Positions 10,164 through 23,529 of a DNA stretch of 35,247 bases are shown piece after piece. The stretch spans positions 1 through 35,247 of the forward strand of contig CAKZKA010000134.1 in NCBI GenBank assembly GCA_937120965.1, written 5' to 3'. The DNA is from an uncultured Chloroflexota bacterium. GTDB taxonomy: Bacteria > Chloroflexota > Chloroflexia > Chloroflexales > Chloroflexaceae. The number at the start of each line of letters is the position of its first letter. Position 1 is the stretch's first letter. The translations under genes and the position numbers were made by a program. The notes beneath the pieces are model-generated. The model worked only from the letters and a program-made list of their open reading frames with translations. It had not been told where the DNA came from and made no database searches.

Positions 10164-10916
10164 TCAGCCCGAAAGGGCCACATTGATCAACAGGAGCGCC
10201 AGTCCATTCTGCAGGGCGTGGTACAGCACCCCCGGCCAGATCGAGCCACTGCGCTCGCGCAGATAGGCCAGGATCAGGCCAATGATGAAGAGGCCCGGCA
10301 GCAACTGCGGAATAACGTGGACCACGGCAAACAGCGCCGCGTTGAGGAGTATGGCGCGCGCAGGGCCGAGGTCGCGGCGCATCAGCGGGTACAGCATGCC
10401 GCGAAAGAACAGCTCTTCGGCAAACGGCACCACGCCCGCCACCAGGATCAGCAGCAGCAGTACCTCGACCGGGGCGAGCGCGGCGCCGCCGGTGAGCGCT
10501 TCGACCTGCGGGTTCTGAAAGCCGCCCATCAGCAGGCCGACTGTCGCGTTGACCAGGATCAGGGCCAGCATGCCTGCGACGAAGAGCGGCGGCACCAGCA
10601 GCAGGCTCAGCCAGTCAGGAGGCCGCAGCCCCAGTGCAGCCCGCCCGGCGCGACGCCCCACCAGGGCGTAGACTCCGCCAATCGCGGCGAGGTAGATCCC
10701 CAGTCCAACCACATAGACTGCCGGTGAGATCAGCCGCTGCTCCAGAGTCAGGCCAAGCGCTGCCACCAGGCCCCGAGCCAGCAGCGCCAGCGCCGCCGCT
10801 ACCGCCACGATTAGCAGCACGACCCCGCCCACGTCGCGCCAGGTCCACGGGGGCGTCGCAGGCGGCTCGGGCGCGGGCGGCGGGGGAACGGCGGCGGTCA
10901 GACGATCATCGCGCAT
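10164..10916 (-). CDS. CPBP-family intramembrane glutamic protease
   Basis: A 250-residue integral membrane protein of the CPBP (CAAX protease/Abi) family. In other organisms members cleave prenylated or other membrane substrates or act in bacteriocin immunity, and the substrate here is unknown. Motif 1 is E167-E168-xxx-R172 (FAEELFFRG). Motif 2 includes His200 (AVVH), and the C-terminal motif is H233-x3-N237 (YHALQN). About seven or eight hydrophobic segments are visible, after a Pro-rich cytoplasmic N-terminus (about 10-25). I kept ATG 10916, although no strong Shine-Dalgarno sequence precedes it. It stands alone between the MITE pair and a palindrome cluster. Confidence 0.9.
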   Translation of the reverse strand: MRDDRLTAAVPPPPAPEPPATPPWTWRDVGGVVLLIVAVAAALALLARGLVAALGLTLEQRLISPAVYVVGLGIYLAAIGGVYALVGRRAGRAALGLRPPDWLSLLLVPPLFVAGMLALILVNATVGLLMGGFQNPQVEALTGGAALAPVEVLLLLILVAGVVPFAEELFFRGMLYPLMRRDLGPARAILLNAALFAVVHVIPQLLPGLFIIGLILAYLRERSGSIWPGVLYHALQNGLALLLINVALSG

Positions 10917-10952
10917 CGTGGTGCCCTGGCGGGGCGCCGGTCACCCCGGCGG

Positions 10953-11093
10953 CCCTGAGGTGAAAATACGGGGAAACCGGGTTTCCCCATCCCCCTGCCC
11001 GTGGGGGCGCCAGCCGCCCCCAACGGCGGTTGGGACATGGGGCAACTGGGTTGCCTCACGCCCTCCCTGAGGGGAGGGGTTGGGCGAAGGGTC
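10953..11093. repeat. Palindromic repeat cluster between leuD and the CPBP gene
   Basis: The cluster contains TGAGGTGAAAATAC, then GGGGAAACCGGGTTTCCCC (10970-10988), a GCCCCCAACGGCGGTTGGG hairpin, and a GGGGCAACTGGGTTGCC variant near 11040-11056. These are the same modules as at 13471-13800. No gene is present. Confidence 0.75.
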
Positions 11094-11143
11094 GCAGCGG
11101 CGCCACGCCTCTTCGGCGGGGGTCATAGCTGGTCAAAAGCGCC

Positions 11144-11767
11144 TCACGCGCCCCCATCGGGGTGCAACGTGTTCACCCGGGCAGGCGTGGCGGCCTCGTA
11201 GGCGGCAATGGCCTCCTCGTGCTGCTGGATGAAGCCAAGCTGATCCACGCCGTGGATCAGGCAATGTTTGGCGAAGCCGTCAATTGGGAAGCTCACCGCG
11301 CGACCCCCGGGCAACACCACCTGCTGGTTGGGCAGGTCAACCCTAACGGTAGTTTCGGGGTCCTCTTCAATGTGGCTGAGCAGTTCGCGGTGGCTTTCTT
11401 CGTCTACGACAATTGGCAGTAGACCGATCTTCAGGCTATTGTTGCGAAAGATATCGGCGAAGGAGAGGGCAATCACGGCCTTGAAGCCATAGCCCTGCAA
11501 AGCCCAGGGGGCGTGCTCACGCGAACTGCCGCAGCCGAAGTTGCGCCCGGTGACCAGCACGGTAGCGCCGGCAGCCTCGGGCCGGTTGAGGGGAAAGTCG
11601 GGGTTCGGCGTCCCATCGGGCAGGTAACGCCAGGCCTGAAAGAGACCCTCGGCCAGGCCGCTCTTGTCGGTAACCTTCAGGTATGCCGCAGGGATGATCT
11701 GGTCGGTATCAATATCGTCGGCCACCAGGGCGACGACTTTTCCGGTAAAGGTGGTAACAGGCTCCAA
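11144..11767 (-). CDS. leuD: 3-Isopropylmalate dehydratase small subunit LeuD
   Basis: LeuD pairs with LeuC to isomerise 2-isopropylmalate to 3-isopropylmalate. With CimA in the same block it should also isomerise citramalate to 3-methylmalate for isoleucine. The protein has 207 residues and a swivelling aconitase-like fold, with ADDIDTDQIIPAAYLK near the N-terminus and GRNFGCGSSREHAPWAL in the substrate-recognition region. I chose TTG 11767 because AGGAGG lies about seven bases upstream. The open frame continues 17 codons further to 11818, past that ribosome site. It is the last gene of the minus-strand block, about 200 bp after leuC, with a strong hairpin in the gap. Confidence 0.93.
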   Translation of the reverse strand: MEPVTTFTGKVVALVADDIDTDQIIPAAYLKVTDKSGLAEGLFQAWRYLPDGTPNPDFPLNRPEAAGATVLVTGRNFGCGSSREHAPWALQGYGFKAVIALSFADIFRNNSLKIGLLPIVVDEESHRELLSHIEEDPETTVRVDLPNQQVVLPGGRAVSFPIDGFAKHCLIHGVDQLGFIQQHEEAIAAYEAATPARVNTLHPDGGA

Positions 11768-11817
11768 GCTTCCCTCCTGAGGCAAGCAGCGGGCGTTGTA
11801 ACGTTCCAATCGCTCCA

Positions 11818-11866
11818 CATCTCCACACCTACAACTGGCCCGGAGAGCTGTAGCGGTGTGGAGATG
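11818..11866 (-). promoter_or_regulatory. Long stem-loop in the leuC-leuD gap
   Basis: CATCTCCACACC (11818-11829) and GGTGTGGAGATG (11855-11866) form a perfect 12-bp stem. An inner partial stem follows (CTACAACT against AGCTGTAG). In the transcript it lies between leuC and leuD and is not followed by a T-run, so it is not a normal terminator. It could be an RNA processing or stability element that sets the LeuC:LeuD ratio, or an inserted repeat (inference). Confidence 0.6.
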
Positions 11867-11974
11867 AAAGCCGGATGGTCAAGCGGGTCTGAACCACACC
11901 TGACACTGGCGCATTCGGCCAACGGGCTTACGTTCAAGAAGAAGGATGCGCAGGGCTGCGCCCTCATCGATCGT

Positions 11975-13417
11975 TCACGCGCCTGCCAGGGCGCCCTCCA
12001 GCATCGTCCGCGGGTCGGTGACCACACCGGTGAGGGCCGTGGCGGCCGCGGTGAGCGGGCTGGCGAGCAGGGTGCGCGCGCCTGGCCCCTGGCGGCCCTC
12101 GAAGTTGCGGTTGCTGGTCGAAATGGCATACTTGCCGGGCGGCACCTTGTCATCGTTCATCCCCAGGCACGCCGAGCACCCCGCCTCGCGCCATTCGGCG
12201 CCCGCGGCGCGGAAGATCTCGTGCAACCCTTCGGCCTCGGCCTGCCGCTTCACCTGCTGGCTGCCGGGCACGACCATCACCCGCACGCCTTCGGCCACCT
12301 TGCGGCCCTTCCAGAGCGCCGCTACCTGCCGCAGGTCGCTGATGCGCGAGTTGGTGCAACTGCCGATGAAGACCACGTCAACTCTGTGGCCCAGGAGCAG
12401 CTTGCCCGGCTCCAGGCCCATATAGCTCAGAGCCTTGTCGAGAGCCTGGCGGCTGCTGGCGTCGGGCATGTGTTCAGGGGCGGGAATGGCTGCATCAATC
12501 GGCATACCCATGCCGGGGTTGGTGCCGTAGGTGATCATTGGCGCCAGGGTGCTGGCATCGAGGAACATCTCTTTGTCGAAGCGCGCCTCGGGGTCACTGG
12601 GCAACTGGCGCCAGTGAGCCACGGCGGCCTCGAAATCGGCGCCCTTCGGCGCGTAGGGCCGCCCGGCCACGTACTCGAAGGTGGTGTCATCGGGAGCGAC
12701 CATGCCTGCCCGCGCCCCACCTTCAATGGACATGTTGCAGATGGTCATGCGCTCCTCCATCGAGAGGGCGCGAATGGCCTCGCCCATGTACTCAAACACG
12801 TGCCCGGCGCCGCCGCCAACCCCGTACTTCGCGATGATCGCCAGAATGATGTCCTTGGCGGTCACACCCGGCTGCAAGCGCCCCTCTACCCGCACGGCGC
12901 AGGTCTTCGGGCGGTACTGGAGCAGACACTGCGTGGCGAGCACGTGACCGACTTCGCTGGTGCCGATGCCGAAGGCCAGGGCGCCGAAGGCGCCGTGGGT
13001 CGAGGTATGGCTGTCACCACAGACGATCGTCATCCCCGGCTGGGTCAGCCCCTGCTCGGGACCGATCACGTGGACGATCCCCTGGTTGGCGCTCCCCAGT
13101 TCGTAGAGCGGAATGCCAAACTCGGCGCAGTTGGCGCGCAGTCGGTCAAGCTGCGCGATGGCCTGGGGGTCAATGACCGGAATGACGCCCAGCGCGTTCC
13201 GGGGCGTGGTCGGGGTCGAGTGATCCATCGTGGCGAGGGTGCGGTCGGGGCGGCGCACGCGCAGGCCACGCTGGCGCAACTCGGTGAACGCCTGCGGCGA
13301 TGTCACCTCGTGGATCAGATGCAGGTCAATGTACAGCACCGCCGGCGTGTCGGCGGTTTCGGGGCGCACCAGGTGCGCGTCCCATACCTTGTCGAAGAGG
13401 GTCTTTGACTGGCTCAT
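11975..13417 (-). CDS. leuC: 3-Isopropylmalate dehydratase large subunit LeuC
   Basis: LeuC is the catalytic, [4Fe-4S]-bearing subunit of isopropylmalate isomerase. The 480-residue product shows the aconitase-family [19 protein letters not shown] region and the cluster cysteines in GSCTNSR and GCSACLGMN. The length matches bacterial LeuC (about 465-480). GTG 13420 and ATG 13417 are adjacent in frame. I prefer ATG 13417, which has AGGA six bases upstream. It lies about 400 bp downstream of cimA, a gap filled with palindromic repeats, so transcription from the ilv promoter may weaken before it. The partner subunit leuD follows in the same direction. Confidence 0.96.
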
Positions 13418-13470
13418 CACGCTTCCTGTTCCAGCGATGGTATCTTACACCTGGATGAAAGGGGTTTTCT

Positions 13471-13800
13471 TGATGTGAAAATACGGGGAAACCGGGTTTC
13501 CCCATCTCTTGCCTGTGGAGGCGCCAGCCGCCCCCAACCGCGGTTGGGGTGTGGGGAAACCGGGTTTCCCCACGCCCTTCCTCCCGGGGGCCCCGGACGC
13601 CCCCACCAGCGGTTGGGAAATGGGGAAACCGGGTTTCCCCATCTCCTGCCGGTGGAGGCGCCAGCCGCCCCCACCGGCGGTTGGGGGGATGGGAAATCCG
13701 GGTTTCCCCATCCCCCCTGCCCGGCAGGGTGGCCCGCCCTCCGCACCGGGAGGGCAAGCCCTCCCGTGGGCGCGGACACGGGGAAACCCGGTTTCCCCTA
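13471..13800. repeat. Palindrome cluster between leuC and cimA
   Basis: Five GGGGAAACCGGGTTTCCCC-type palindromes lie near 13485-13503, 13555-13573, 13622-13640, 13689-13708 and 13780-13798. They alternate with CGCCAGCCGCCCCCA-type hairpins at about 67-90 bp period. A TGATGTGAAAATAC motif starts the cluster. The alternating arrangement resembles BIMEs. The 'spacers' are near-identical to one another, unlike CRISPR. No coding sequence is present. Confidence 0.8.
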
Positions 13801-13816
13801 TGTTAAGGCATTGCGT

Positions 13817-15415
13817 CTAGGCCTCACCGCCGGCAGCCTCCAGGCGCGCCTCGCGCTCGCGCAGCAGGGGTAACTCCAGGCTGTCCCAGAGCGCCAGGTA
13901 GCTGGCCTCGATAATGTTCTGCGAGGCGCCAATGGTGGACCAGCGTTCGTCGCCCCGGGCGCTTTCGATCAGCACCTGCGGCGTGGCGGCAGTGCCCAGA
14001 TGGGCGTCAATGATGCGTACTTTATAGTCTACCAGACGCACTTCCGCAAGGAGGGGATAGTGGGGCAGCAGCGCCTTGCGGATGGCGGCATCGAGCGCAT
14101 TGACCGGGCCGTGGCCCTCGGCAGCGGTGTGCATCACCTCGTTGCCAACGCGCACCTTGACCATTGCCTGCGAAGCGATGGCGCGGTCGCCGCGCTTCTC
14201 GACGATCACCGTAAAATCGAGCAACTCAAAGGGCGGCTGGTAGTCTTCGGCGCTGCGGCGCACCAGCATCTCGAAGCTGCCCTCCGCGGCCTCGAACTGG
14301 AAGCCGCGATGCTCAAGCTCCTTGATACGCTGCACCAGCCCGCGCTCGGCACCGTTGAGGCGCAACCCCAGTTCATCGGCGCGCATGCGCACGTTGCCTC
14401 GCCCCGCCAGTTCGCTTACCACCACCCGCTTGCGGTTGCCGACCAGAGCCGGATCAATGTGCTGGTAGCTCGACTCGACCTTTTCGATCGCCGCGACGTG
14501 GATGCCACCCTTGTGGGCAAAGGCGCTGCGCCCGACGTAGGGCGCATGGTGGTCAGGGTTGAGGTTTGCCACGGCAGCAACAAAGTGGGACACTTCGGAG
14601 AGGCGCCGCAACTGTTCGGGCGCGACGCAGCAGTAGCCGAGCTTGAGTTGGAGATTGGCGATAAGCGGGATCAGGTCCATGTTGCCGCAGCGCTCACCAT
14701 AGCCGTTGATCGTCCCCTGCACATGGATGGCCCCCGCCTCAACCGCAGCCATGGCGTTCGCCAGGGCCAGGCCGCCGTCGTTGTGGGTGTGGATGCCGAT
14801 CTGCGGGTGGGCGGCCCCGAAACGCTCGCGCACCGTCCGCACTATCGCCGCCACATCGCCGGGCAGCGAGCCGCCATTGGTGTCGCAGAGCACCAGACAG
14901 TCGGCGCCTGCGCCTGCGGCGGCCTCCAGCGTGCGCAGGGCGTAGTCCGCGTCGAGGCGGTAGCCATCGAAGAAGTGCTCGGCGTCGTAGATCACCTCCT
15001 TGCCGCGGGCCTTGAAAAAGGCCACCGAGTCGGCGATCATGGCCAGATTCTCGGCCAGCGTGGTCTCGAGCACCTGTTCAACGTGCAGCACCGAGCTTTT
15101 CCCGACCAGGGTGACCACGGGGGTGGCGGCCTCGAGCAGCGCGCGGATGTTCGCGTCGGCCTCGCAGGTACTCCCGGCGTGGCGCGTGGCCCCGAAGGCG
15201 CTCACGCGAGCGTGGCGCAGCCCCAGGGCCGGCACGCGCTGGAAGAACTCAGCATCCTTGGGGTTTGACCCCGGCCAGCCGCCTTCGATGTAATGCACCC
15301 CCAGTTGATCGAGCACCCGGGCGATCTTCAGCTTATCATCGCACGAAAGCGCAAGGCCCTCGCGCTGGGCGCCATCGCGCAGAGTGGTGTCGTAGAGCAG
15401 GATTTGCACGGCCAT
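13817..15415 (-). CDS. cimA: (R)-Citramalate synthase CimA
   Basis: CimA condenses pyruvate with acetyl-CoA to (R)-citramalate, starting the threonine-independent route to 2-oxobutanoate and isoleucine. The 532-residue protein begins with the DRE-TIM signature LYDTTLRDGAQREG, has the metal ligands in GIHTHNDGG and CDTNGG, and ends with a LeuA-type allosteric domain. The GAQREG form with a long C-terminus separates it from true 2-isopropylmalate synthase, which is present 1.2 kb upstream as leuA. ATG 15415 has GGAGG close upstream. Its partners LeuC and LeuD follow downstream, matching the pathway order. The upstream 211-bp gap holds a GC-rich stem-loop. Confidence 0.93.
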   Translation of the reverse strand: MAVQILLYDTTLRDGAQREGLALSCDDKLKIARVLDQLGVHYIEGGWPGSNPKDAEFFQRVPALGLRHARVSAFGATRHAGSTCEADANIRALLEAATPVVTLVGKSSVLHVEQVLETTLAENLAMIADSVAFFKARGKEVIYDAEHFFDGYRLDADYALRTLEAAAGAGADCLVLCDTNGGSLPGDVAAIVRTVRERFGAAHPQIGIHTHNDGGLALANAMAAVEAGAIHVQGTINGYGERCGNMDLIPLIANLQLKLGYCCVAPEQLRRLSEVSHFVAAVANLNPDHHAPYVGRSAFAHKGGIHVAAIEKVESSYQHIDPALVGNRKRVVVSELAGRGNVRMRADELGLRLNGAERGLVQRIKELEHRGFQFEAAEGSFEMLVRRSAEDYQPPFELLDFTVIVEKRGDRAIASQAMVKVRVGNEVMHTAAEGHGPVNALDAAIRKALLPHYPLLAEVRLVDYKVRIIDAHLGTAATPQVLIESARGDERWSTIGASQNIIEASYLALWDSLELPLLREREARLEAAGGEA

Positions 15416-15497
15416 GCCTCCATGGTTTCGTATGCCAGGCTCTCAGTGGACGGCGTGTGAGCAGACGCCCCATCACCCTCAGGAGAGAGGCGCAGAC

Positions 15498-15526
15498 GGG
15501 TAGCGCTGGCGCGCGCCACGCTACCC
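15498..15526 (-). promoter_or_regulatory. Stem-loop in the cimA leader
   Basis: GGGTAGCG (15498-15505) pairs with CGCTACCC (15519-15526), and the loop contains a further TGGCGC/GCGCCA palindrome. Together they give a near-continuous stem in the pheA-cimA gap. No T-run follows it, so it looks like a structural or processing element. The role is unknown. Confidence 0.5.
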
Positions 15527-15626
15527 TTGACGGCGGGCCGTGCCGATGGCGGGCAGCGGCGACGCGCCCTTGCGTCGAGCCGCTGCCGGTTGCTCCTCCT
15601 TGTGCCGGATGCATTGGTCCATACGC

Positions 15627-16460
15627 TCAACCCTTCCAGCGGGGATAGCTCCCGAAGATCTTGAACATCCCCGTTCTGGCGCGAATGCGGTCCAGGGCCC
15701 GGGCGACATGGGCTTCTTCACGATGCCCATTTATGTCAACCAGAAAGATGTACTGCCCCAGTACGGCCCGGGAGGGTCGTGACTCGAGCTTGGTCATATT
15801 GATCTGTTCCTCGGCCAGTTCAAGCAGTGCCCCGACCAGCGTGCCGGCTCGATCCTCGGTAAAACCGAAGCAGAAGCTGGTCTTGTCATCGCCAGTGGGA
15901 GGGGCGTCGCTGCGGGCCAGCACGATGAAGCGGGTCACGTTGCCCAGATTGTCGGCGATGTCGCGGGCCAGCACCGCAGCCTCCAGCAGCTCGGCGGCGC
16001 GACGGGTGGTGATGGCGACGGCAGGGCGCTCGTCGGCGAGAGCCTCGCGCAGCGCGGCGCTGTTGGAGAGTGAGGCGACCGTTGCAACCCCCGGCAGGCA
16101 GCGCTCGATGAACTTCCGGCACTGCCCCAGGCTCTGCGGGTGGGCGTAGAGTACACTCGCCTCGGAGAGTTGGACACCGGGGCGCGCAGCTAGATACTGG
16201 CGGATCGGAATAACGATCTCGCCAGCGATCTGGAGGCTCGTCTCGTGGATCAGCAGATCAAGGGTGTAGTTGACGCTGCCCTCGAGCAGATTCTCGATCG
16301 GCAACACGCCGACAGTGGCCGCATCGGTTTCGATCGCCGTGACTACCGCTGGAATGCTCGCCAGCGGCAGGAGGATCGCGCCGGACAAACTGGCCGCATA
16401 GGCCAGCGCCGCTTCTTCGCTGAAGGTGCCGGCCGGGCCGAGGTACGCGATGGTGGTCAT
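15627..16460 (-). CDS. pheA: Prephenate dehydratase PheA
   Basis: PheA converts prephenate to phenylpyruvate, the committed step to phenylalanine. The 277-residue monofunctional form starts with IAYLGPAGTFSEEAA and contains the catalytic-region motif NVTRFIVL near 175-182. A C-terminal ACT regulatory domain (about 195-272) carries the ESRPSR motif that binds phenylalanine in this family. No chorismate mutase domain is fused. It sits between leuA and cimA on the same strand, so an aromatic gene is embedded in a branched-chain operon. The leuA-pheA gap (171 bp) contains repeat modules, so an internal promoter is possible. Confidence 0.95.
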   Translation of the reverse strand: MTTIAYLGPAGTFSEEAALAYAASLSGAILLPLASIPAVVTAIETDAATVGVLPIENLLEGSVNYTLDLLIHETSLQIAGEIVIPIRQYLAARPGVQLSEASVLYAHPQSLGQCRKFIERCLPGVATVASLSNSAALREALADERPAVAITTRRAAELLEAAVLARDIADNLGNVTRFIVLARSDAPPTGDDKTSFCFGFTEDRAGTLVGALLELAEEQINMTKLESRPSRAVLGQYIFLVDINGHREEAHVARALDRIRARTGMFKIFGSYPRWKG

Positions 16461-16544
16461 TGGATGGCTATCGTATGTCTTGCTCTTTGCCAGGCAGCCG
16501 CGCGGCTGCGCCCCGCGCCACAGGTATACGCAAAGACTCGCCTG

Positions 16545-16605
16545 GGAGGGTTGCGCCCTCCCAAACCCTCTCCACAGGCAGGGGCATAGGGAACCCTGCT
16601 TGCCC
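16545..16605. repeat. Degenerate palindromic repeat between pheA and leuA
   Basis: GGGAGGGTTGCGCCCTCCC (16543-16561) and a degraded AGGGAACCCTGCTTGCCCC palindrome (about 16588-16606) match the families seen in the other gaps. Mutation in both arms suggests older copies. Confidence 0.6.
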
Positions 16606-16631
16606 CTGGTGCGCTACCACAGCGTGCCAGA

Positions 16632-18305
16632 CTAGTCCGTGCCGTAGCCCGCGGCGTAGGCCACCGCCTCGGCCTTGATCCGCTCCTGGCGCGCGGCGAG
16701 CATTTTGTTGAGCGCGGCCATATAGGCCTGGGCCGCGGCTACAATCGTATCCGTATGCACGCCGTAGCCGCTGAAAATCTGCTGCGCCGCCCGTTTGCCG
16801 GTCAGCACCGTGGTCGTGCTGGTGCTGGCCCCCAGGTCCACCCCCGCGCCCTCGCTGCCCGGCGCGCCCTGCTCGCGGATACGCACGGTCACCTCGGCCA
16901 CCGCATCCAGCCCTTCGGTGATGGCGTTGATCGAAAACTCGATCAACTCGCTGGGGCGCTGAACCACCCGGTTGATCGCCCGGTAGATCGCGTCCACCGG
17001 GCCGGTGCCTGTATCGCTGTCAATGTGGACCTGGCCTTCAGGGCCGATCAGGCGCACCGTCGCGGTGGGGATCATCCCCAGACCGGAGTTGTACTGCACG
17101 TGGTCCAGGCGGTAGATCTCCGGGGTATGCTGCAACTCGCCGGTAACCAGGGCAAGAATATCGCGCTCGTCCACCCGCTTCTTGCGATCGCACAGGTCCT
17201 TGAAGCGCTCGAAGAGGTGCTGGAACTCTTCCTCGCTCTCCAGTTCGATGCCCATCGCGTTCAGCTTGGTGCGGAAGGCGTGCCGTCCGGAGTGCTTGCC
17301 GAGCACCAGTTCGCTCCCATCCAGGCCCACCGTCTCGGCGCTCATGATCTCGTAGGTCTGGCGGTGCTTGAGCACTCCGTCCTGATGGATGCCCGACTCG
17401 TGGGCGAAGGCGTTGGCGCCGACAATGGCCTTGTTCGGTGGCACAGGCACGCCGATGAAGCTGGAAACCAGGCGCGAGGTGCGGGCGATCTCGCGGGTGT
17501 TGATCTGCGTGCGCACCCCGTAGAACTTCCCGCGGGTGTGGATGGCCATCACCACTTCTTCCAGCGAGGCGTTGCCAGCGCGCTCACCGATACCGTTAAT
17601 GGTACACTCCACCTGGCGCGCCCCGTTGCGTACTCCCGCCAGGGAGTTAGCTACCGCTACTCCCAGGTCATCGTGGCAGTGGGTCGAGAGGATGCACTGC
17701 TTGATCCCTGGCACGTGTTCGTAAAGATCGCGGATCATCGCGCCGTACTCGTCGGGGGTCAGGTACCCAACGGTATCGGGGATGTTCAGGGTCGTGGCAC
17801 CGGCCTCGATGGCCGTTGCCACAGCCTGGCGCAGGAAGAGGGGGTCACTGCGCCCGGCGTCCATTGGCGAAAACTCCACATCGTCGCAGAGCGAGCGCGC
17901 GAAGCTCACCATCTCACGGATAATGACCAGGGCTTCTTCACGGGTCTTGCGGAACTGGTGCTCGAGGTGGATGTCCGAGGTGGACATGAAGGTGTGGATG
18001 CGCTTCTTCGCGGCGGGCTGGATGGCCGACCAGGCCTTTTCGATATCATCGCGGTTGGCCCGCGCCAGGGCGGCAATCACCGGGCCGCTGGACGTCCCTA
18101 CCTCGCGCGCGATCTCATGCACCGCTGCCCAGTCACCGGGGGAAGCGGCAGGGAAGCCGGCTTCGATGATGTCCACGTTCAGGCGCGCCAGTTGCCGCGC
18201 CACCTCCAGCTTCTCCTCCAGGGTCATAGTACAGCCAGGCGCCTGCTCGCCATCGCGCAGGGTCGTATCGAAGATGCGTACGTGATCTACCGCAGGGGTC
18301 TCCAT
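16632..18305 (-). CDS. leuA: 2-Isopropylmalate synthase LeuA
   Basis: LeuA condenses 2-oxoisovalerate with acetyl-CoA, the first step of the leucine branch. The 557-residue protein has the signature [16 protein letters not shown], the metal-binding [16 protein letters not shown] region and a C-terminal leucine-responsive domain (about 400-520). It is somewhat longer than the 510-525 of many LeuA proteins, because of a C-terminal tail. The ATG is preceded by GGAGGAACC. It follows ilvC by 95 bp and is most likely cotranscribed. Its family resemblance to CimA is clear, but the DGEQAPG form and NGIGERAGN segment mark it as true LeuA. Confidence 0.96.
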
Positions 18306-18400
18306 GGTTCCTCCGTCTCTCTCGACAGCACGGCTGGGTGGCGGCGGCGCCCCGGCCGGCCCTGGAGCCGCGCCCGGTTGCCGCCTACCCCGCTGAGCGC

Positions 18401-19423
18401 TCAGGCGCCCCCGCTGCCGGGGGTCACCTCACGCGGGTTGACGAACGGCATCATCCGGCGCAACTCCAGACCGATCTTCTCGATCGGGTGCTCGATGTCG
18501 GCCTTGCGATAGGCGTTGAAACGTGGGCGCCCGTTGTGGTTCTCCTCGATCCAGTCCTCGGCAAAGGCGCCTGACTGAATATCGGCCAGAATGCGCTTCA
18601 TTGCCGCCCGGGTCTCGGCGGTAATGATCTTTGGCCCGGAGGTGTAATCGCCCCACTCGGCAGTATCGCTCACCGAGTAGCGCATGTAGTTTAGCCCGCC
18701 CTGGTAGAACAGGTCCACGATCAGTTTCAGTTCGTGCATGCACTCGAAGTAGGCCACCTCGGGCTGATAGCCGGCCTCGACCAGGGTCTCGAAGGCGGCC
18801 TTGACCAGCGCCGAGACGCCCCCGCAGAGCACCACCTGCTCTCCGAACAGGTCAGTCTCGGTCTCCTCGGCGAAGGTGGTCTTGAGCACCCCGGCGCGGG
18901 TACAGCCCAACCCCCTGGCGTAAGCCAGCGCGTCCTCGAAGGCTCCGCCGCTGGCATCTTGCTGGACGGCGACCAGCGCGGGCACGCCGCCGCCCTGGAT
19001 GAAGACCTCGCGCACGCGATGGCCGGGCGCTTTGGGAGCGACCATGCTCACATCAATGCCCGCAGGGGGCACGATCTGCCCGAACCGGATATTGAAGCCA
19101 TGGGCGAACATCAGGGTCTTACCCGGCTCCATCGAGGGCGCGATATGATCGCGGTAGACGTCGGCCTGGCCGATATCCGGGGTGAGCATCATCACAATCT
19201 GGGCCTCGCGGGCCGCCTCGGCCACGCTCATCGCCCGCAGGCCGGCCGCCTCGACCCTGGCCCAGCTCTTCGAGCCGGGGTAGAGGCCAACCCGCACATC
19301 GAGACCGCTGTCGGCCAGGTTGCAGGCATGGGCGTGCCCCTGGCTGCCAAAGCCGATAATCGCGATCGGCCTGCCCTTCAAGCGCTCGAGATCGGCCTGC
19401 TTATCGTAGAACAACTCTGCCAT
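18401..19423 (-). CDS. ilvC: Ketol-acid reductoisomerase IlvC
   Basis: IlvC performs the Mg2+-dependent alkyl migration and NADPH reduction that turns acetolactate or acetohydroxybutyrate into dihydroxy acids for valine and isoleucine. The 340-residue class I enzyme has the Rossmann motif [10 protein letters not shown] and the cofactor-phosphate loop LYPGSKSW, with serines and lysine that suit NADPH. It also has VAPKAPGH, and the metal-ligand segment ETDLFGEQ in the helical domain. It lies between ilvN and leuA on the same strand. The start follows a purine-rich GAAGGAGCG stretch. The dihydroxyacid dehydratase gene ilvD is not in this window. Confidence 0.97.
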
Positions 19424-19542
19424 ACGCCCTTACGCTCCTTCGCAGAGCGGGATCGACACCCGCGGCGGGGGTCAGGCTCCTGGCCTGCCCATCCAGAGAA
19501 TGAGAGGGGCGGACACTCAGGCCCGCCCGCAGAACGCACCTG

Positions 19543-20085
19543 TCATTTGGTCGTCGGTACCGGCACCCCGTTGGGTCCCGCGTGTTCAACATACTCGGTG
19601 GCAAACTGCCCGCGCGCGCCGCGTACCATGGCAATGCGCCCGGTGCGCATCAACTCGCGGATGCCGTAGGGCCGCACCACCTCGATGAAGTTCTCCACCT
19701 TGGCGGGCGCGCCGGTCATCTCGACGATCATGGTGCTGGCGCCCACATCAACGATCTTGGCGTCAAACACGCCACACATCGAGACAATCTCGTGGCGCGA
19801 GGCCGTGGGCGCGTTGAGCTTCAGCACCACCATCTCGCGCTCGACGATGGGATCGTCGGTCACGTCTGAAACCTTGATCACCTCGATCAGGCGGTAGAGT
19901 TGCTTGACCACCTGCTCGACATCTTCCGACTCGACGACAATGGTCATCCGGCTGACCCCGGGTTGCTCGCTGTGCCCCACGGCCAGACTCTGGATATTGT
20001 ACCCGCGCCGGCGCACCAGGCCGGCCACGCGGCTGAGCACGCCGGGGCGATCTTGCACGAGGAGGACGATCGTGTGGGTTTTCAT
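19543..20085 (-). CDS. ilvN: Acetolactate synthase regulatory subunit IlvN (IlvH)
   Basis: The small subunit activates the catalytic IlvB protein and confers feedback inhibition by valine. It has 180 residues: an N-terminal ACT domain beginning THTIVLLVQDRPGVLSRVAG, where valine binds at the dimer interface in homologues, then a C-terminal ALS_ss_C domain (about 85-165). The length is typical of the longer IlvH type. It starts 50 bp after ilvB and is almost certainly cotranslated from the same message, then is followed by ilvC at 119 bp. Confidence 0.95.
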   Translation of the reverse strand: MKTHTIVLLVQDRPGVLSRVAGLVRRRGYNIQSLAVGHSEQPGVSRMTIVVESEDVEQVVKQLYRLIEVIKVSDVTDDPIVEREMVVLKLNAPTASRHEIVSMCGVFDAKIVDVGASTMIVEMTGAPAKVENFIEVVRPYGIRELMRTGRIAMVRGARGQFATEYVEHAGPNGVPVPTTK

Positions 20086-20135
20086 ACACCTGGCTCGTTT
20101 CTCAGCGCGGACGGTCGCCCGTCCACTGGCTGCTA

Positions 20136-21878
20136 TCAGGCATCCGCCTCGGTGATAATCATCTCGGCGATCGACTTGTTCTGGGGCACCATCGGGAAGA
20201 CGTTCACCTCGCGCTCGACACGGAAGTCGATCAGCACCGGGCCATCGGTGGCGTGGGCCTCATCAATCGCCTCCTGCACCTGGTCGGCGTGTTCGACGGT
20301 CAGGCCCTTCCAGCCGTAGGCTTCGGCCAGTTTGGCGAAGTCGGGGCCGGAGAGGGGCGTGCCGCTGTAGCGCTTGTTCTCGAACAACTCCTGCCACTGG
20401 CGAACCATGCCCAGATAGCCGTTGTTGATCACCGCGATCTTGATATTCTTGATCCCCTCCTGCTTGATCGTCGCCATCTCCTGGTTGGTCATCTGGAACC
20501 CACCATCGCCGACAATGGCCCAGATCGTATCATTGGGGTGCGCGATCGCCACGCCGAGGGAGGCGGGCACAGCGAAGCCCATGGTGCCGGCGCCGCCGGA
20601 GGTAATGTGGGTGCGTGGCCCGGCGTTCCAGTCAATCAACTGCGCGGCCCACATCTGATGCTGGCCCACATCGGTAACCACGCGGTAGTTGCCGCGCGCC
20701 GCCAGCGTGCGGTTCAACTTTTCGTAGACATCGTGGGGCGGCAGCGCCCACTGGGCCGTATTGGCGCGATTGACGTACTGCTGCTTGCCCTGGTGTTTCT
20801 CCTGCAAATCGCGGATGTGCTCCAGCCAGTCGGAAGCATGCGAGTGCAACTCGGCCAGGGCCTCCCGCTCGGGCAGTTCCTCCAGCAGGGCCAGGAGCGT
20901 CAGACGCGCATCGCCGACGATGGGCACTGTCACCTTGACATTCTTGCCGATCTCAGACGGATCGATGTCCACGTGGATCACCTTCGCGTTCGGCGCAAAG
21001 GTGCTGGCCTTGCCCGTCACCCGGTCGTCGAAGCGCCCGCCGATGTTGAAGAGCACATCGCACTCCTGGATGGCGCGGTTGCAGTGGACCCAGCCGTGCA
21101 TGCCGGGCATGCCCAGGCTGAGCGGATGGCTCTCGGGGAAGGAACCGATGCCGTGCAGGGTGGTGATCACCGGAATACGCAGCGTCTCGGCGAACTGGCG
21201 CAGTTCCTCCGTCGCCCCCGACATGATCACCCCATTGCCGGCGATGATCAGCGGCTTTTGCGCCGAGAGCAGCAGTTTCACCGCCTCGCGCACTTGTTTG
21301 CGGTTTGGCGCGTAGGTCGGCTTGTAGCCGGGAAGATTGAGTTTCTGGTCCCAATTCGGCACGGTGGACTTCTGCATTGCGTCCTTGGTAATATCGATCA
21401 GCACCGGGCCGGGGCGGCCAGTGGTGGCGATATAGATCGCCTCCCGGAAGACATAGGCCAGGTCATTCACGTCCTTCACCAGGTAATTGTGCTTGGTGAT
21501 CGGCATAGTGATCCCGGTGATATCGGTCTCCTGGAAGGCGTCTTTGCCGAGCACGTGGCTGCCCACCTGCCCGCAGATCGCCAGCAGCGGCGTGCTATCC
21601 ATCATCGCGTCGGCGATTGGCGTGACCAGGTTCGTCCCCCCCGGCCCACTGGTGCCGATACACACGCCAATCCGCCCGGTGGCGCGGGCATAGCCCTCAG
21701 CGGCGTGACCGGCGCCCTGCTCGTGGCGGCAAAGTACGTGGCGCAGCTTATCCCGGTATTCCCACATCGCGTAGTAGAAGGGCATGATCGCGCCCCCGGG
21801 AATACCGAACATCACCTCGACCCCCTCACGGATAAGCGCCTCACACATGATCTGGGCGCCGGTTCGTGTCTCGGACAT
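20136..21878 (-). CDS. ilvB: Acetolactate synthase catalytic subunit IlvB
   Basis: IlvB is the thiamine diphosphate enzyme that joins pyruvate to pyruvate or 2-oxobutanoate, the entry to valine/leucine and isoleucine. The 580-residue protein has the catalytic Glu in RHEQGAGHAAEGYAR, an FAD-binding middle domain and the ThDP motif GDGGFQMTNQE-x-NNGYLGMV. The ATG has GAGGAGG a few bases upstream. It is the first structural gene of the minus-strand block. About 300 bases of leader separate it from a leader peptide and terminator, and the promoter is at 22291-22320, so its expression is probably set by attenuation. Confidence 0.97.
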   Translation of the reverse strand: MSETRTGAQIMCEALIREGVEVMFGIPGGAIMPFYYAMWEYRDKLRHVLCRHEQGAGHAAEGYARATGRIGVCIGTSGPGGTNLVTPIADAMMDSTPLLAICGQVGSHVLGKDAFQETDITGITMPITKHNYLVKDVNDLAYVFREAIYIATTGRPGPVLIDITKDAMQKSTVPNWDQKLNLPGYKPTYAPNRKQVREAVKLLLSAQKPLIIAGNGVIMSGATEELRQFAETLRIPVITTLHGIGSFPESHPLSLGMPGMHGWVHCNRAIQECDVLFNIGGRFDDRVTGKASTFAPNAKVIHVDIDPSEIGKNVKVTVPIVGDARLTLLALLEELPEREALAELHSHASDWLEHIRDLQEKHQGKQQYVNRANTAQWALPPHDVYEKLNRTLAARGNYRVVTDVGQHQMWAAQLIDWNAGPRTHITSGGAGTMGFAVPASLGVAIAHPNDTIWAIVGDGGFQMTNQEMATIKQEGIKNIKIAVINNGYLGMVRQWQELFENKRYSGTPLSGPDFAKLAEAYGWKGLTVEHADQVQEAIDEAHATDGPVLIDFRVEREVNVFPMVPQNKSIAEMIITEADA

Positions 21879-22106
21879 ACGTCCTCCTCATCGCGCGTGG
21901 TGCTGGCAATGCAAAGCCCGGGCGGCACAGCGTCGGGCTGCTCGCGTCACCGTAGAACGTCTGGATTACGAAACTGTTACCTCTGGACTACCGACCGGCG
22001 GAGCCGCCTCGATGGGGCGTTACGCCGCTACCCACGTCGTTGTGGGCCGGCGCCCGCGCGGGGCCGTGCGCGAGCGGTGCGGCGGTGAACAGGACACGTT
22101 CGACAT

Positions 22107-22138
22107 TGAAAAACCTCCCGGCACTGGCTCGGGAGGTT
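22107..22138 (-). terminator. Intrinsic terminator of the ilv attenuator
   Basis: On the minus strand AACCTCCCG (22138-22130) and CGGGAGGTT (22120-22112) form a nine-bp stem, followed directly by TTTTT. It lies about 40 bases after the leader peptide stop and 230 bases before ilvB, so it ends transcription before the structural genes. Confidence 0.9.
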
Positions 22139-22169
22139 CAGTCTCGCTCAGGCTGCTGGGGCTCGGCAT

Positions 22170-22177
22170 CCCCTCCC
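22170..22177 (-). promoter_or_regulatory. Candidate anti-terminator segment of the ilv attenuator
   Basis: In the transcript GGGAGGGG follows the leader peptide stop codon directly. It can pair either with CTCCTCC inside the leucine codons (22201-22210 or 22221-22231) or with CCTCCC of the terminator's left arm (22131-22136). This is the segment 2 role in a classical four-segment attenuator. Confidence 0.6.
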
Positions 22178-22258
22178 TCAACGGCTATTGCTCCACCCGA
22201 TAAGGAGGAGTACAAGCACGCTCAGGAGGAGGATAGATACAAACCGAGACGCTGCCAT
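22178..22258 (-). CDS. Branched-chain amino acid leader peptide of the ilv operon
   Basis: A 26-codon reading frame sits between the ilv promoter and the terminator. After MAASRF it encodes VSILLLSVLVLLLI, then a short GWSNSR tail and TGA. Of the 14 residues in that run, 12 are Leu, Val or Ile (seven Leu, three Val, two Ile). This is the hallmark of leader peptides that sense charged branched-chain tRNAs by ribosome stalling. AAGG lies eight bases before the ATG. Its codons include repeated CTC-CTC pairs whose RNA can pair with the GGGAGGGG just after the stop. A short membrane peptide is the alternative, because the composition is also that of a transmembrane helix. The position between promoter and terminator argues for regulation. 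Confidence 0.8.
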   Translation of the reverse strand: MAASRFVSILLLSVLVLLLIGWSNSR

Positions 22259-22290
22259 CTGTGCAACCTTCACAAATCGTTATTGTGGGG

Positions 22291-22320
22291 AGCATACCAC
22301 ACGGCTACCGGTGCTGTCAA
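22291..22320 (-). promoter_or_regulatory. Promoter of the ilvB-leuD block
   Basis: Consensus TTGACA (22320-22315) and TATGCT (22296-22291) are separated by 18 bp on the minus strand. Transcription would begin about 25 bases before the leader peptide. Confidence 0.8.
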
Positions 22321-22521
22321 GAGTGTTGCGGCACGTCGGCACGGGTATGACGTAGTTGCCCGGCGCCCAGCGCAGGGCCGAAGCATGCGAGCAGTGCGCG
22401 ACAGGCACGGACGCCTCTGTGCGGCGCATACTTCGGCCTGCCCCCCCATGCGGCAACCCGGTCGCCCGGGGGCCGCCGGATCGAATGCCCGAAACCGATC
22501 ACCCTGGCCCGATGGCGGCCA

Positions 22522-23529
22522 TCACGACCCGGCGGAGGTATCGCCGCGCAGAAAGGCCGCACACTCCTCGGGGAGCGAGGGATTGATCCAGACGCCGCTG
22601 CCAAGCTCCAGGCCGGCACTGCGACTGAGGCGAGGGATGATGGCGATGTACCAGTGGAAATAGCCGTTCTCAGGCTCCTTGGTGGGCGTCGAGCGGATGA
22701 GCAGGTTAAAATCCGGATCGTTCAGATGAGCGTAGAGGCGAAAGAGCACATCGCGCAGCAGCGGGGCCAGGAAGGCCAGTTCCTCATCCGAGACGTGCAG
22801 GAAACTGGCGCGGTGCTGCCGCGGCACGATCCAGATGTGGAAAGGCGACGAGGCGGCGTAGAGCACAAAGGCGGCGAAACGTTCATTGACCGCCACCAGG
22901 CGCTCACGGCGCGTCAGTTCATCGGCGAGCATGGTGCAGAACACACACTGGCCAGTATCGTCGAAGAACCGCCGCGCTTCTTCGATGCGGTGGCGAATAT
23001 CACTCGGCACAATCGGCAGCCCGACCACCTGACTGTGGGCGTGCAGCAGCGAAGCGCCGGCCCGCTCGCCGTGGTTCTTGAAAAAGACGATCTGCTCCAC
23101 CCGCACGTCCGCGGCGATCTGCTGACCGCGACGCAAGTACATCTGCAACACCGCGCGGACCTCTTCGTCCGTCATCAGGGCCAGGGTCGTGTTATGAAAC
23201 GGATGCTCAACCAGCACCTCGTGGTAGCCAAAGCCGGTAATGCTACGCTCCACCCCGTTGAAGCTACGGATGAGCGAACCGTTCTCGATCAGCGCCGGAT
23301 ACTTGTTCCGCACAATCCGCGTCTGCCAGCCGGCGCCGTTGGGTTCGCGCCAGACCTCCAGATCGAGTTCCTCGTTGCCAGGACAGAAAGGACAGCCGGG
23401 ATCGCATTCGACGCGCTCGTGGGTGCGCAGCCGGTCGCTGGATTCCACGTAGGCATTAGGACGGCGCGCCCGTTCACGGGCAATGATCACCCATTCGCGG
23501 GTCGCGAGATTCTGCCGCAACTCGGCCAT
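22522..23529 (-). CDS. galT: Galactose-1-phosphate uridylyltransferase family protein GalT
   Basis: GalT-family enzymes of the HIT superfamily swap a nucleotide between UDP-glucose (or a similar donor) and a sugar phosphate through a uridylyl-histidine intermediate. The 335-residue protein has CPFCPGN near residue 46, of zinc-site type, then FGYHEVLVEHPFHN. The active-site motif is HAHSQVVGLP (canonical form HPHGQ), and a second CVFC pair and a YFHWYIAIIPRL C-terminal region follow. The HAHSQ form also occurs in homologues acting on other sugar phosphates, for instance ADP-glucose phosphorylase, so galactose as substrate is not certain. No other Leloir gene is nearby. It is divergent from guaB, with its own promoter at 23616-23644. 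Confidence 0.88.
   Translation of the reverse strand: MAELRQNLATREWVIIARERARRPNAYVESSDRLRTHERVECDPGCPFCPGNEELDLEVWREPNGAGWQTRIVRNKYPALIENGSLIRSFNGVERSITGFGYHEVLVEHPFHNTTLALMTDEEVRAVLQMYLRRGQQIAADVRVEQIVFFKNHGERAGASLLHAHSQVVGLPIVPSDIRHRIEEARRFFDDTGQCVFCTMLADELTRRERLVAVNERFAAFVLYAASSPFHIWIVPRQHRASFLHVSDEELAFLAPLLRDVLFRLYAHLNDPDFNLLIRSTPTKEPENGYFHWYIAIIPRLSRSAGLELGSGVWINPSLPEECAAFLRGDTSAGS

Follow-up and report, generated by a model that had tools for sequence, protein, structure and literature searches.

Introduction

Established examples of ilv operons attenuated through translation of a leader peptide come from Enterobacteria, Corynebacterium, Staphylococcus and Listeria (PMC1183508, PMC11857589, PMC5794164, PMC5864092). 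The enterobacterial ilvGMEDA, ilvBN and leu attenuators combine a run of control codons, mutually exclusive 2:3 and 3:4 helices, an intrinsic terminator and a codon bias in the leader (PMC1183508). The Corynebacterium ilvBNC attenuator (the ilvB-II motif; PMC10272879, PMC11857589) places a branched-chain-rich leader peptide before ilvB, together with a terminator, an antiterminator and a further hairpin, and the peptide of C. glutamicum, MTIIRLVVVTARRLP, has 15 residues. The ilv leaders of Staphylococcus aureus and Listeria monocytogenes (PMC5794164, PMC5864092) show that branched-chain leader-peptide attenuation is also found outside Proteobacteria and Actinobacteria. The ilvB-OMG and Leptospira ilvB motifs (PMC10272879) are conserved RNAs in which a short Leu/Ile/Val-rich ORF stands before ilvB. 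T-box leaders likewise respond to the charging of tRNA, in many cases through a terminator, but they bind the tRNA directly and need no leader peptide.

Here we describe a leader of this kind in front of the ilv operon of an uncultured Chloroflexaceae bacterium, located in a stretch of 35,247 nucleotides (contig CAKZKA010000134.1, hereafter the window), together with its counterparts in related genomes. It shares with the enterobacterial attenuators the control codons, the two exclusive helices, the terminator and the codon bias. It differs in that only some lineages of Chloroflexales clearly pair their leader codons with segment 2, and in a hairpin within the ORF that is conserved in more of them. 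The Corynebacterium attenuator, which belongs to a different phylum, is likened to it by layout and not by sequence; a difference from that system is that segment 2 of the Chloroflexales leaders abuts the end of the ORF or falls inside it. The S. aureus and L. monocytogenes leaders, which are likened here by their type of control, differ in acting together with CodY. In contrast to the ilvB-OMG and Leptospira motifs, the leader of the window is matched by no Rfam model, and no T-box was found at the operon of the window, although T-boxes are present in the same genomes.

We are highly confident that this leader is a ribosome-mediated transcription attenuator, that is, a known type of mechanism in a phylum that is new for it, possibly in a variant layout. 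A first, sequence-only reading of this DNA had assigned such leaders to gamma-proteobacteria, where they do occur, but the examples from Corynebacterium, Staphylococcus and Listeria widen that range (PMC11857589, PMC5794164, PMC5864092). The same reading knew of no characterised case in Chloroflexota, and no earlier report from this phylum was found in the literature searched. The coverage of that search stopped short of the 2010 survey by Lopatovskaya et al., which is said to deal with attenuation across all bacteria. The leader extends translation-coupled attenuation to a deep-branching phylum that includes cultivated, testable genera (Chloroflexus and Roseiflexus).

Architecture of the leader

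The leader occupies positions 22320 to 22107 of the minus strand and consists of a promoter, a leader ORF of 26 codons, the segment GGGAGGGG after its stop codon and a 9-bp terminator with a T-run, all located before ilvB, exactly as the sequence-only reading had set them out. The promoter (22320-22291) is composed of TTGACA at 22320-22315, a spacer of 18 nt and an extended -10 element, TATGCT at 22296-22291 with TG before it. Four sigma-70-like sites were detected by a scan of 10900-22700, and this one, which has the highest score, is the only one on the minus strand. The likely ribosome-binding site of the leader ORF is GAAGG at 22271-22267, which is located 8 nt before the ATG at 22258. The ORF continues to the TGA at 22180-22178 and encodes MAASRFVSILLLSVLVLLLIGWSNSR; in its 12-codon stretch ILLLSVLVLLLI, 11 codons specify Leu, Ile or Val.

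Two elements with pairing potential are located inside the ORF. Segment 1 is the first cluster of Leu codons, ATC CTC CTC CTG (22235-22224), for which pairing with segment 2 is predicted in the absence of a ribosome. The second is a hairpin, designated H1 (22210-22191), whose arms are CTCCTCCT and GGGTGGAG and whose loop contains the last control codons, CTT ATC. Segment 2, the putative antiterminator strand GGGAGGGG (22177-22170), abuts the 3' side of the stop codon. Segment 3, AACCTCCCG (22138-22130), is the 5' arm of the terminator and at the same time the partner of segment 2. A loop of 9 nt separates it from segment 4, the 3' arm CGGGAGGTT (22120-22112), and the T-run continues to 22109, which leaves 230 nt to the start of ilvB at 21878. 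The folding energy of the 177-nt leader is -77.9 kcal/mol, compared with -59.5 +/- 4.0 kcal/mol in shuffled sequences (z -4.6).

The possibility that GGGAGGGG serves as a Shine-Dalgarno site for an ORF starting at the adjoining ATG 22169 was considered and ruled out, since this ATG is ACG or AAG in relatives and the segment varies together with the terminator arm. In the interval between segments 2 and 3 (around 22139-22150 in the window) the leaders of Chloroflexaceae keep AGACTGA or a close variant of it, for which no role was found.

Occurrence in Chloroflexales

The presence of this device in Chloroflexales is far from chance. When the regions upstream of ilvB are compared among relatives, which is the check that had been proposed from the sequence alone, the leader frame, the 2:3 and 3:4 helices and the promoter are found to be conserved, and segments 2 and 3 covary. 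The comparison comprised the upstream DNA of ilvB from 70 genomes of the order (loci L001-L070), two of which (G026 and G078) were left out as unreadable because the contig ends before the leader site. In all 68 readable genomes a leader ORF with a terminator stands at the head of the ilv operon, immediately before ilvB in 52 genomes and before ilvD-ilvB in 16. In 15 of these 16 genomes the leader is located about 2.1 kb upstream of ilvB, and in the 16th (G005) it was located on the contig that bears the start of ilvD; the ilvD gene preceding ilvB was confirmed by profile in two cases and by sequence in others. One additional leader (L081/L332) comes on top of the 68. Among the named records are Chloroflexus (L071), Roseiflexus (L074, L077) and Oscillochloris (L073, L076).

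A strict automated call, which takes ORFs no longer than 60 codons in which 8 codons hold 6 or more Leu/Ile/Val and whose stop codon is followed by a terminator at most 90 nt away, accepted 47 of the 70 regions of the order, compared with 0.6 in dinucleotide shuffles. Among 660 random genomic windows six matches also contained an antiterminator segment, and all six are ilv leaders of the same kind. A promoter with at least 9 of the 12 consensus bases is found 132-202 nt before the leader stop codon in every one of the 52 relatives in which the leader adjoins ilvB, and each of the 17 genomes with the pattern GTACTCCTCC contains it once.

Coordinated change of antiterminator and terminator

Nearly every leader carries, around its stop codon, a near copy of the 3' arm of the terminator that can pair with the 5' arm. 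In the window, GGGAGG of segment 2 complements CCTCCC of segment 3, and this 2:3 pairing excludes the 3:4 helix. The two strands vary together, giving GGGAGG/CCTCCC, GGAAGG/CCTTCC, GAGAGG/CCTCTC and GGGCGG/CCGCCC. The second combination is found in family f2 and also in G312, a genome of another class; the third belongs to G044, where a CCTCTC arm accompanies GAGAGG; and the fourth is found in G340/L287, again of another class, where the CCGCCC arm goes with TGGGCGG. The peptide varies along with the RNA, so that GGA GGG becomes GGA AGG and Gly-Gly becomes Gly-Arg.

Since segment 2 shifts relative to the stop codon and cannot be aligned, an alignment-wide count of pairs was replaced by arm-swap and synonymous-recoding tests. 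Arms of the CTTCC type reach -13.7 kcal/mol with their own segment 2 region and foreign CTCC(C) arms only -8.5 kcal/mol; the mean cost of a foreign arm is approximately 5 kcal/mol for the CTTCC type and 2.4 kcal/mol for the CTCTC type. These values should be read with the definition of segment 2 as the best match to the arm in mind, which biases counts of pairs and is removed only partly by swapping arms. As far as can be judged from such comparisons, the coordinated change of segment 2 and the arm lends support to ribosome-mediated attenuation, as do the spacing of the control codons, the codon preferences and the modelled folding described below.

Position of the control codons and codon usage

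A usable segment 2 is present in 57 order-level leaders, and in 44 of them it begins 18-25 nt past the last Leu, Ile or Val codon of the run, with a mode of 20 or 21 nt. The 13 exceptions comprise seven Chloroflexus leaders in which the script misplaced the end of the run (the spacing is 23 nt by eye) and six true or unclear outliers. The place of the stop codon varies in the main set, where segment 2 starts anywhere between 18 nt ahead of it and 7 nt behind it. In G340, which belongs to another class, the distance from the last control codon to segment 2 is 20 nt. Considering that the spacing is nearly constant while the stop codon moves, it appears that selection acts on the distance between the stall site and segment 2 and not on the position of the stop codon. 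The distance from the codons to the antiterminator offers a comparative ruler for the position of the stalled ribosome.

Codon choice in the leaders departs from that of the structural gene. GTA accounts for 112 of the 211 Val codons in leaders and for 41 of 1333 in ilvB, and the Leu codons of the leaders are shifted from CTG to CTC and CTT. Codon bias is a recognised trait of attenuation leaders (PMC1183508), and the control codons of C. glutamicum, CUU and GUA (PMC11857589), are codons that are enriched in the leaders of Chloroflexales. The bias may serve to make the leader sensitive to tRNA charging.

Pairing within the leader frame

The sequence-only reading proposed four mutually exclusive segments, in which GGGAGGGG pairs either with CTCCTCC in the leucine codons or with the terminator arm. 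The 2:3 and 3:4 parts of this scheme are conserved, whereas the 1:2 part is clear mainly in Chloroflexaceae. In the window, the proposed pairing of CTCCTCC with GGGAGGGG is present in the minimum free energy structure of the whole leader, via the first leucine cluster, and it is stronger than expected from synonymous recoding (p 0.043). Across the order the pairing is stronger than in synonymous recodings for 23 of 57 leaders, mostly those of Chloroflexaceae, which suggests that it is not universal.

The hairpin H1, which the sequence-only reading does not mention, is conserved more widely than the 1:2 pairing. In 49 of 53 leaders it is more stable than synonymous recodings are on average; the mean z is -1.36 (relatedness not removed), and 14 leaders differ singly at p < 0.05. 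The sequence of H1 varies by lineage but the pairing is kept, with the last control codons in or beside the loop: its counterparts are CTTCTCC/GGACGAAG in G006, GTCCTC/GAGGAC in f2, GCCCTT/AAGGGC in G044 and AGCCCTGAT/ATCACGGGCT in leaders of the Roseiflexus type. It is possible that H1 acts as a pause hairpin for RNA polymerase.

Proposed working of the switch

The following course of events is proposed for the leader. Transcription would begin approximately 25 nt upstream of the leader ORF, with a ribosome translating the ORF close behind RNA polymerase and H1 probably pausing the polymerase until the ribosome arrives. A shortage of charged Leu-, Ile- or Val-tRNA is expected to stall the ribosome on the control codons, some 20 nt or more ahead of segment 2. 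GGGAGG of segment 2 would then be free to pair with CCTCCC of segment 3 once this has been made, and the 2:3 helix would block the 3:4 terminator, so that the operon is transcribed. When amino acids are plentiful, the ribosome would reach the stop codon and cover segment 2, which allows 3:4 to form and transcription to end near 22107. If the leader is not translated, segment 2 would in most leaders be engaged in other pairings, which in the window involve the leucine-codon sequence, and the terminator would be favoured. If the leader works in this way, Chloroflexota must have ribosome and polymerase closely coupled at this operon.

The scheme was modelled by folding the leaders up to the start of the 3' arm of the terminator, with the stretch covered by the ribosome held single-stranded. 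The modelled probability of the 2:3 helix has a median of 0.94 (mean 0.81) when the last control codon is in the A site, a median of 0.00 when the stop codon is there, and a median of 0.00 (mean 0.20) without a ribosome. It is higher for the stalled ribosome than for the one at the stop codon in 53 of 57 leaders. The probability is still high when the codon in the A site has come to within approximately 12 nt of segment 2, but at a distance of 6 nt it collapses. When the full leader is folded at equilibrium, the terminator is usually favoured even with a stalled ribosome, and therefore the mechanism has to be a kinetic, co-transcriptional one, as in the known systems.

With the last control codon in the A site, the leader of the window itself gives a low value, 0.19, and a range of 0.16-0.57 when the end of the transcript is varied, so that its antiterminator is predicted to be only marginally stable. 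Relatives of the same genus, which differ by a few bases and carry C in place of a T in the terminator loop, reach 0.85-0.93; it is probably this T that allows a competing CAGT/ACTG pairing in the window. The low value is what would be expected if the terminator were constitutive, insulating the operon or reducing its transcription, with a leader ORF that has no regulatory role in this genome and an antiterminator that has decayed. This explanation is very unlikely, considering that every segment is intact in the window, that its relatives of the same genus score high and that the window itself reaches 0.57-0.81 at some positions of ribosome and transcript.

The second alternative assigns the function to the peptide, as a real small membrane protein acting in trans, whose short gene merely ends at the terminator. 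On the one hand, a very hydrophobic peptide is conserved throughout the order. On the other hand, its residues follow the RNA: those past the Leu/Ile/Val run (GWS, EDN, NKG or ITG) are encoded by the 3' arm of H1 and change with its pairing, the GG or GR residues are encoded by segment 2 and vary with its pairing, and G014 and G025 keep GGTGGAG although their frame differs. The codon choice is skewed to GTA, and the device stands at the head of the ilv operon, in one copy per genome wherever this was tested, all of which makes a membrane protein extremely improbable.

Control of the terminator by a ligand-binding RNA (a T-box, a ppGpp or another riboswitch), with the ORF being incidental, could be suggested by the T-boxes that occur in these genomes and that, in two more distant Chloroflexota (G082 and G159), are located within 5 kb upstream of ilvB, but it deserves hardly any credence. 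No Rfam covariance model gave a match to the leader, either at the gathering threshold or, over 21850-22400, at E values up to 5, and the window is not matched by the T-box model RF00230. Moreover, every readable genome of the order has a Leu/Ile/Val-rich frame, whose control codons mostly keep their spacing to segment 2. Since no Rfam family covers the attenuator leader, the approximately 70 leaders collected here form a natural data set for building a covariance model.

Genes downstream of the leader

The leader precedes eight genes of the minus strand in the order ilvB-ilvN-ilvC-leuA-pheA-cimA-leuC-leuD, each confirmed by profile. The first structural gene is ilvB (21878-20136), which encodes the large subunit of acetolactate synthase (TIGR00118, 723 bits). 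It is followed by ilvN (20085-19543, TIGR00119), ilvC (19423-18401, TIGR00465), leuA (18305-16632, TIGR00973), pheA for prephenate dehydratase (16460-15627, NF008865), cimA for citramalate synthase (15415-13817, TIGR00977), leuC (13420-11975, TIGR00170) and leuD (11770-11144, TIGR00171). In other Chloroflexales the gene order is common from ilvB to pheA and mostly to leuD; pheA follows leuA in the six related loci that were read, and no match to cimA was found in the Chloroflexus locus L071. Given this conserved gene order, it is plausible that one switch sets all eight genes. The scan of 10900-22700 detected no other promoter-like site on the minus strand in the interior of the operon.

The gap of 397 nt between cimA and leuC is filled with palindromic GGGGAAACCGGGTTTCCCC repeats, which could act as weak terminators or as RNA processing sites. 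The repeats, in units of approximately 68 nt, are scattered in intergenic DNA and are dense in this gap; they are found in the window at 13485-13798 and 10971-10988, and also upstream of ilvD in L290. The latter ilvD is that of the window genome, located on a separate contig (G000:C79), and its N-terminus is unlike that of the ilvD preceding ilvB in relatives such as L262. No second attenuator was found in the upstream DNA read before this separate ilvD.

A Trp leader before trpE was also looked for among 25 relatives and gave no consistent candidate. T-box-like matches are located up to several kb upstream of trpE in G000:C40, G046:C1, G012:C15, G043:C35 and others. These genomes may rely on T-boxes for trp and on a leader peptide in the case of ilv.

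A 16S rRNA gene begins at the right end of the contig (35168-35247).

Leaders in other Chloroflexota

Leader-peptide attenuation of ilv appears to be old and general in Chloroflexota. In the other orders of the class 19 regions pass in 40 genomes, 15 of them with a segment 2, and in other classes of the phylum 14 pass in 71 genomes, 8 of them with a segment 2; these are rough counts that include some weak calls, compared with at most 0.2 passing in the shuffle controls. Six automated calls at the level of the class (G083, G088, G091, G092, G094 and G097) and the terminator chosen by the script in G072 were judged spurious and dropped. Among more distant Chloroflexota, the T-boxes near ilvB in G082 and G159 indicate that the phylum mixes two solutions.

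A stronger proposal is that a distinct and ancient layout of attenuation is general in the phylum, with a constant distance of approximately 20 nt between codons and antiterminator, a stop codon that is free to cross the antiterminator strand and a hairpin of the H1 type in place of the classical 1:2 pause hairpin. We regard this proposal as tentative, with the chances somewhat against it.

The more distant locus L080 (VEPF01000233.1) has a leader of the same kind, which precedes leuA instead. The record is titled Gemmatimonadetes, but its IlvB is 72% identical to that of the window, and the title may belong to a misassigned Chloroflexota genome.
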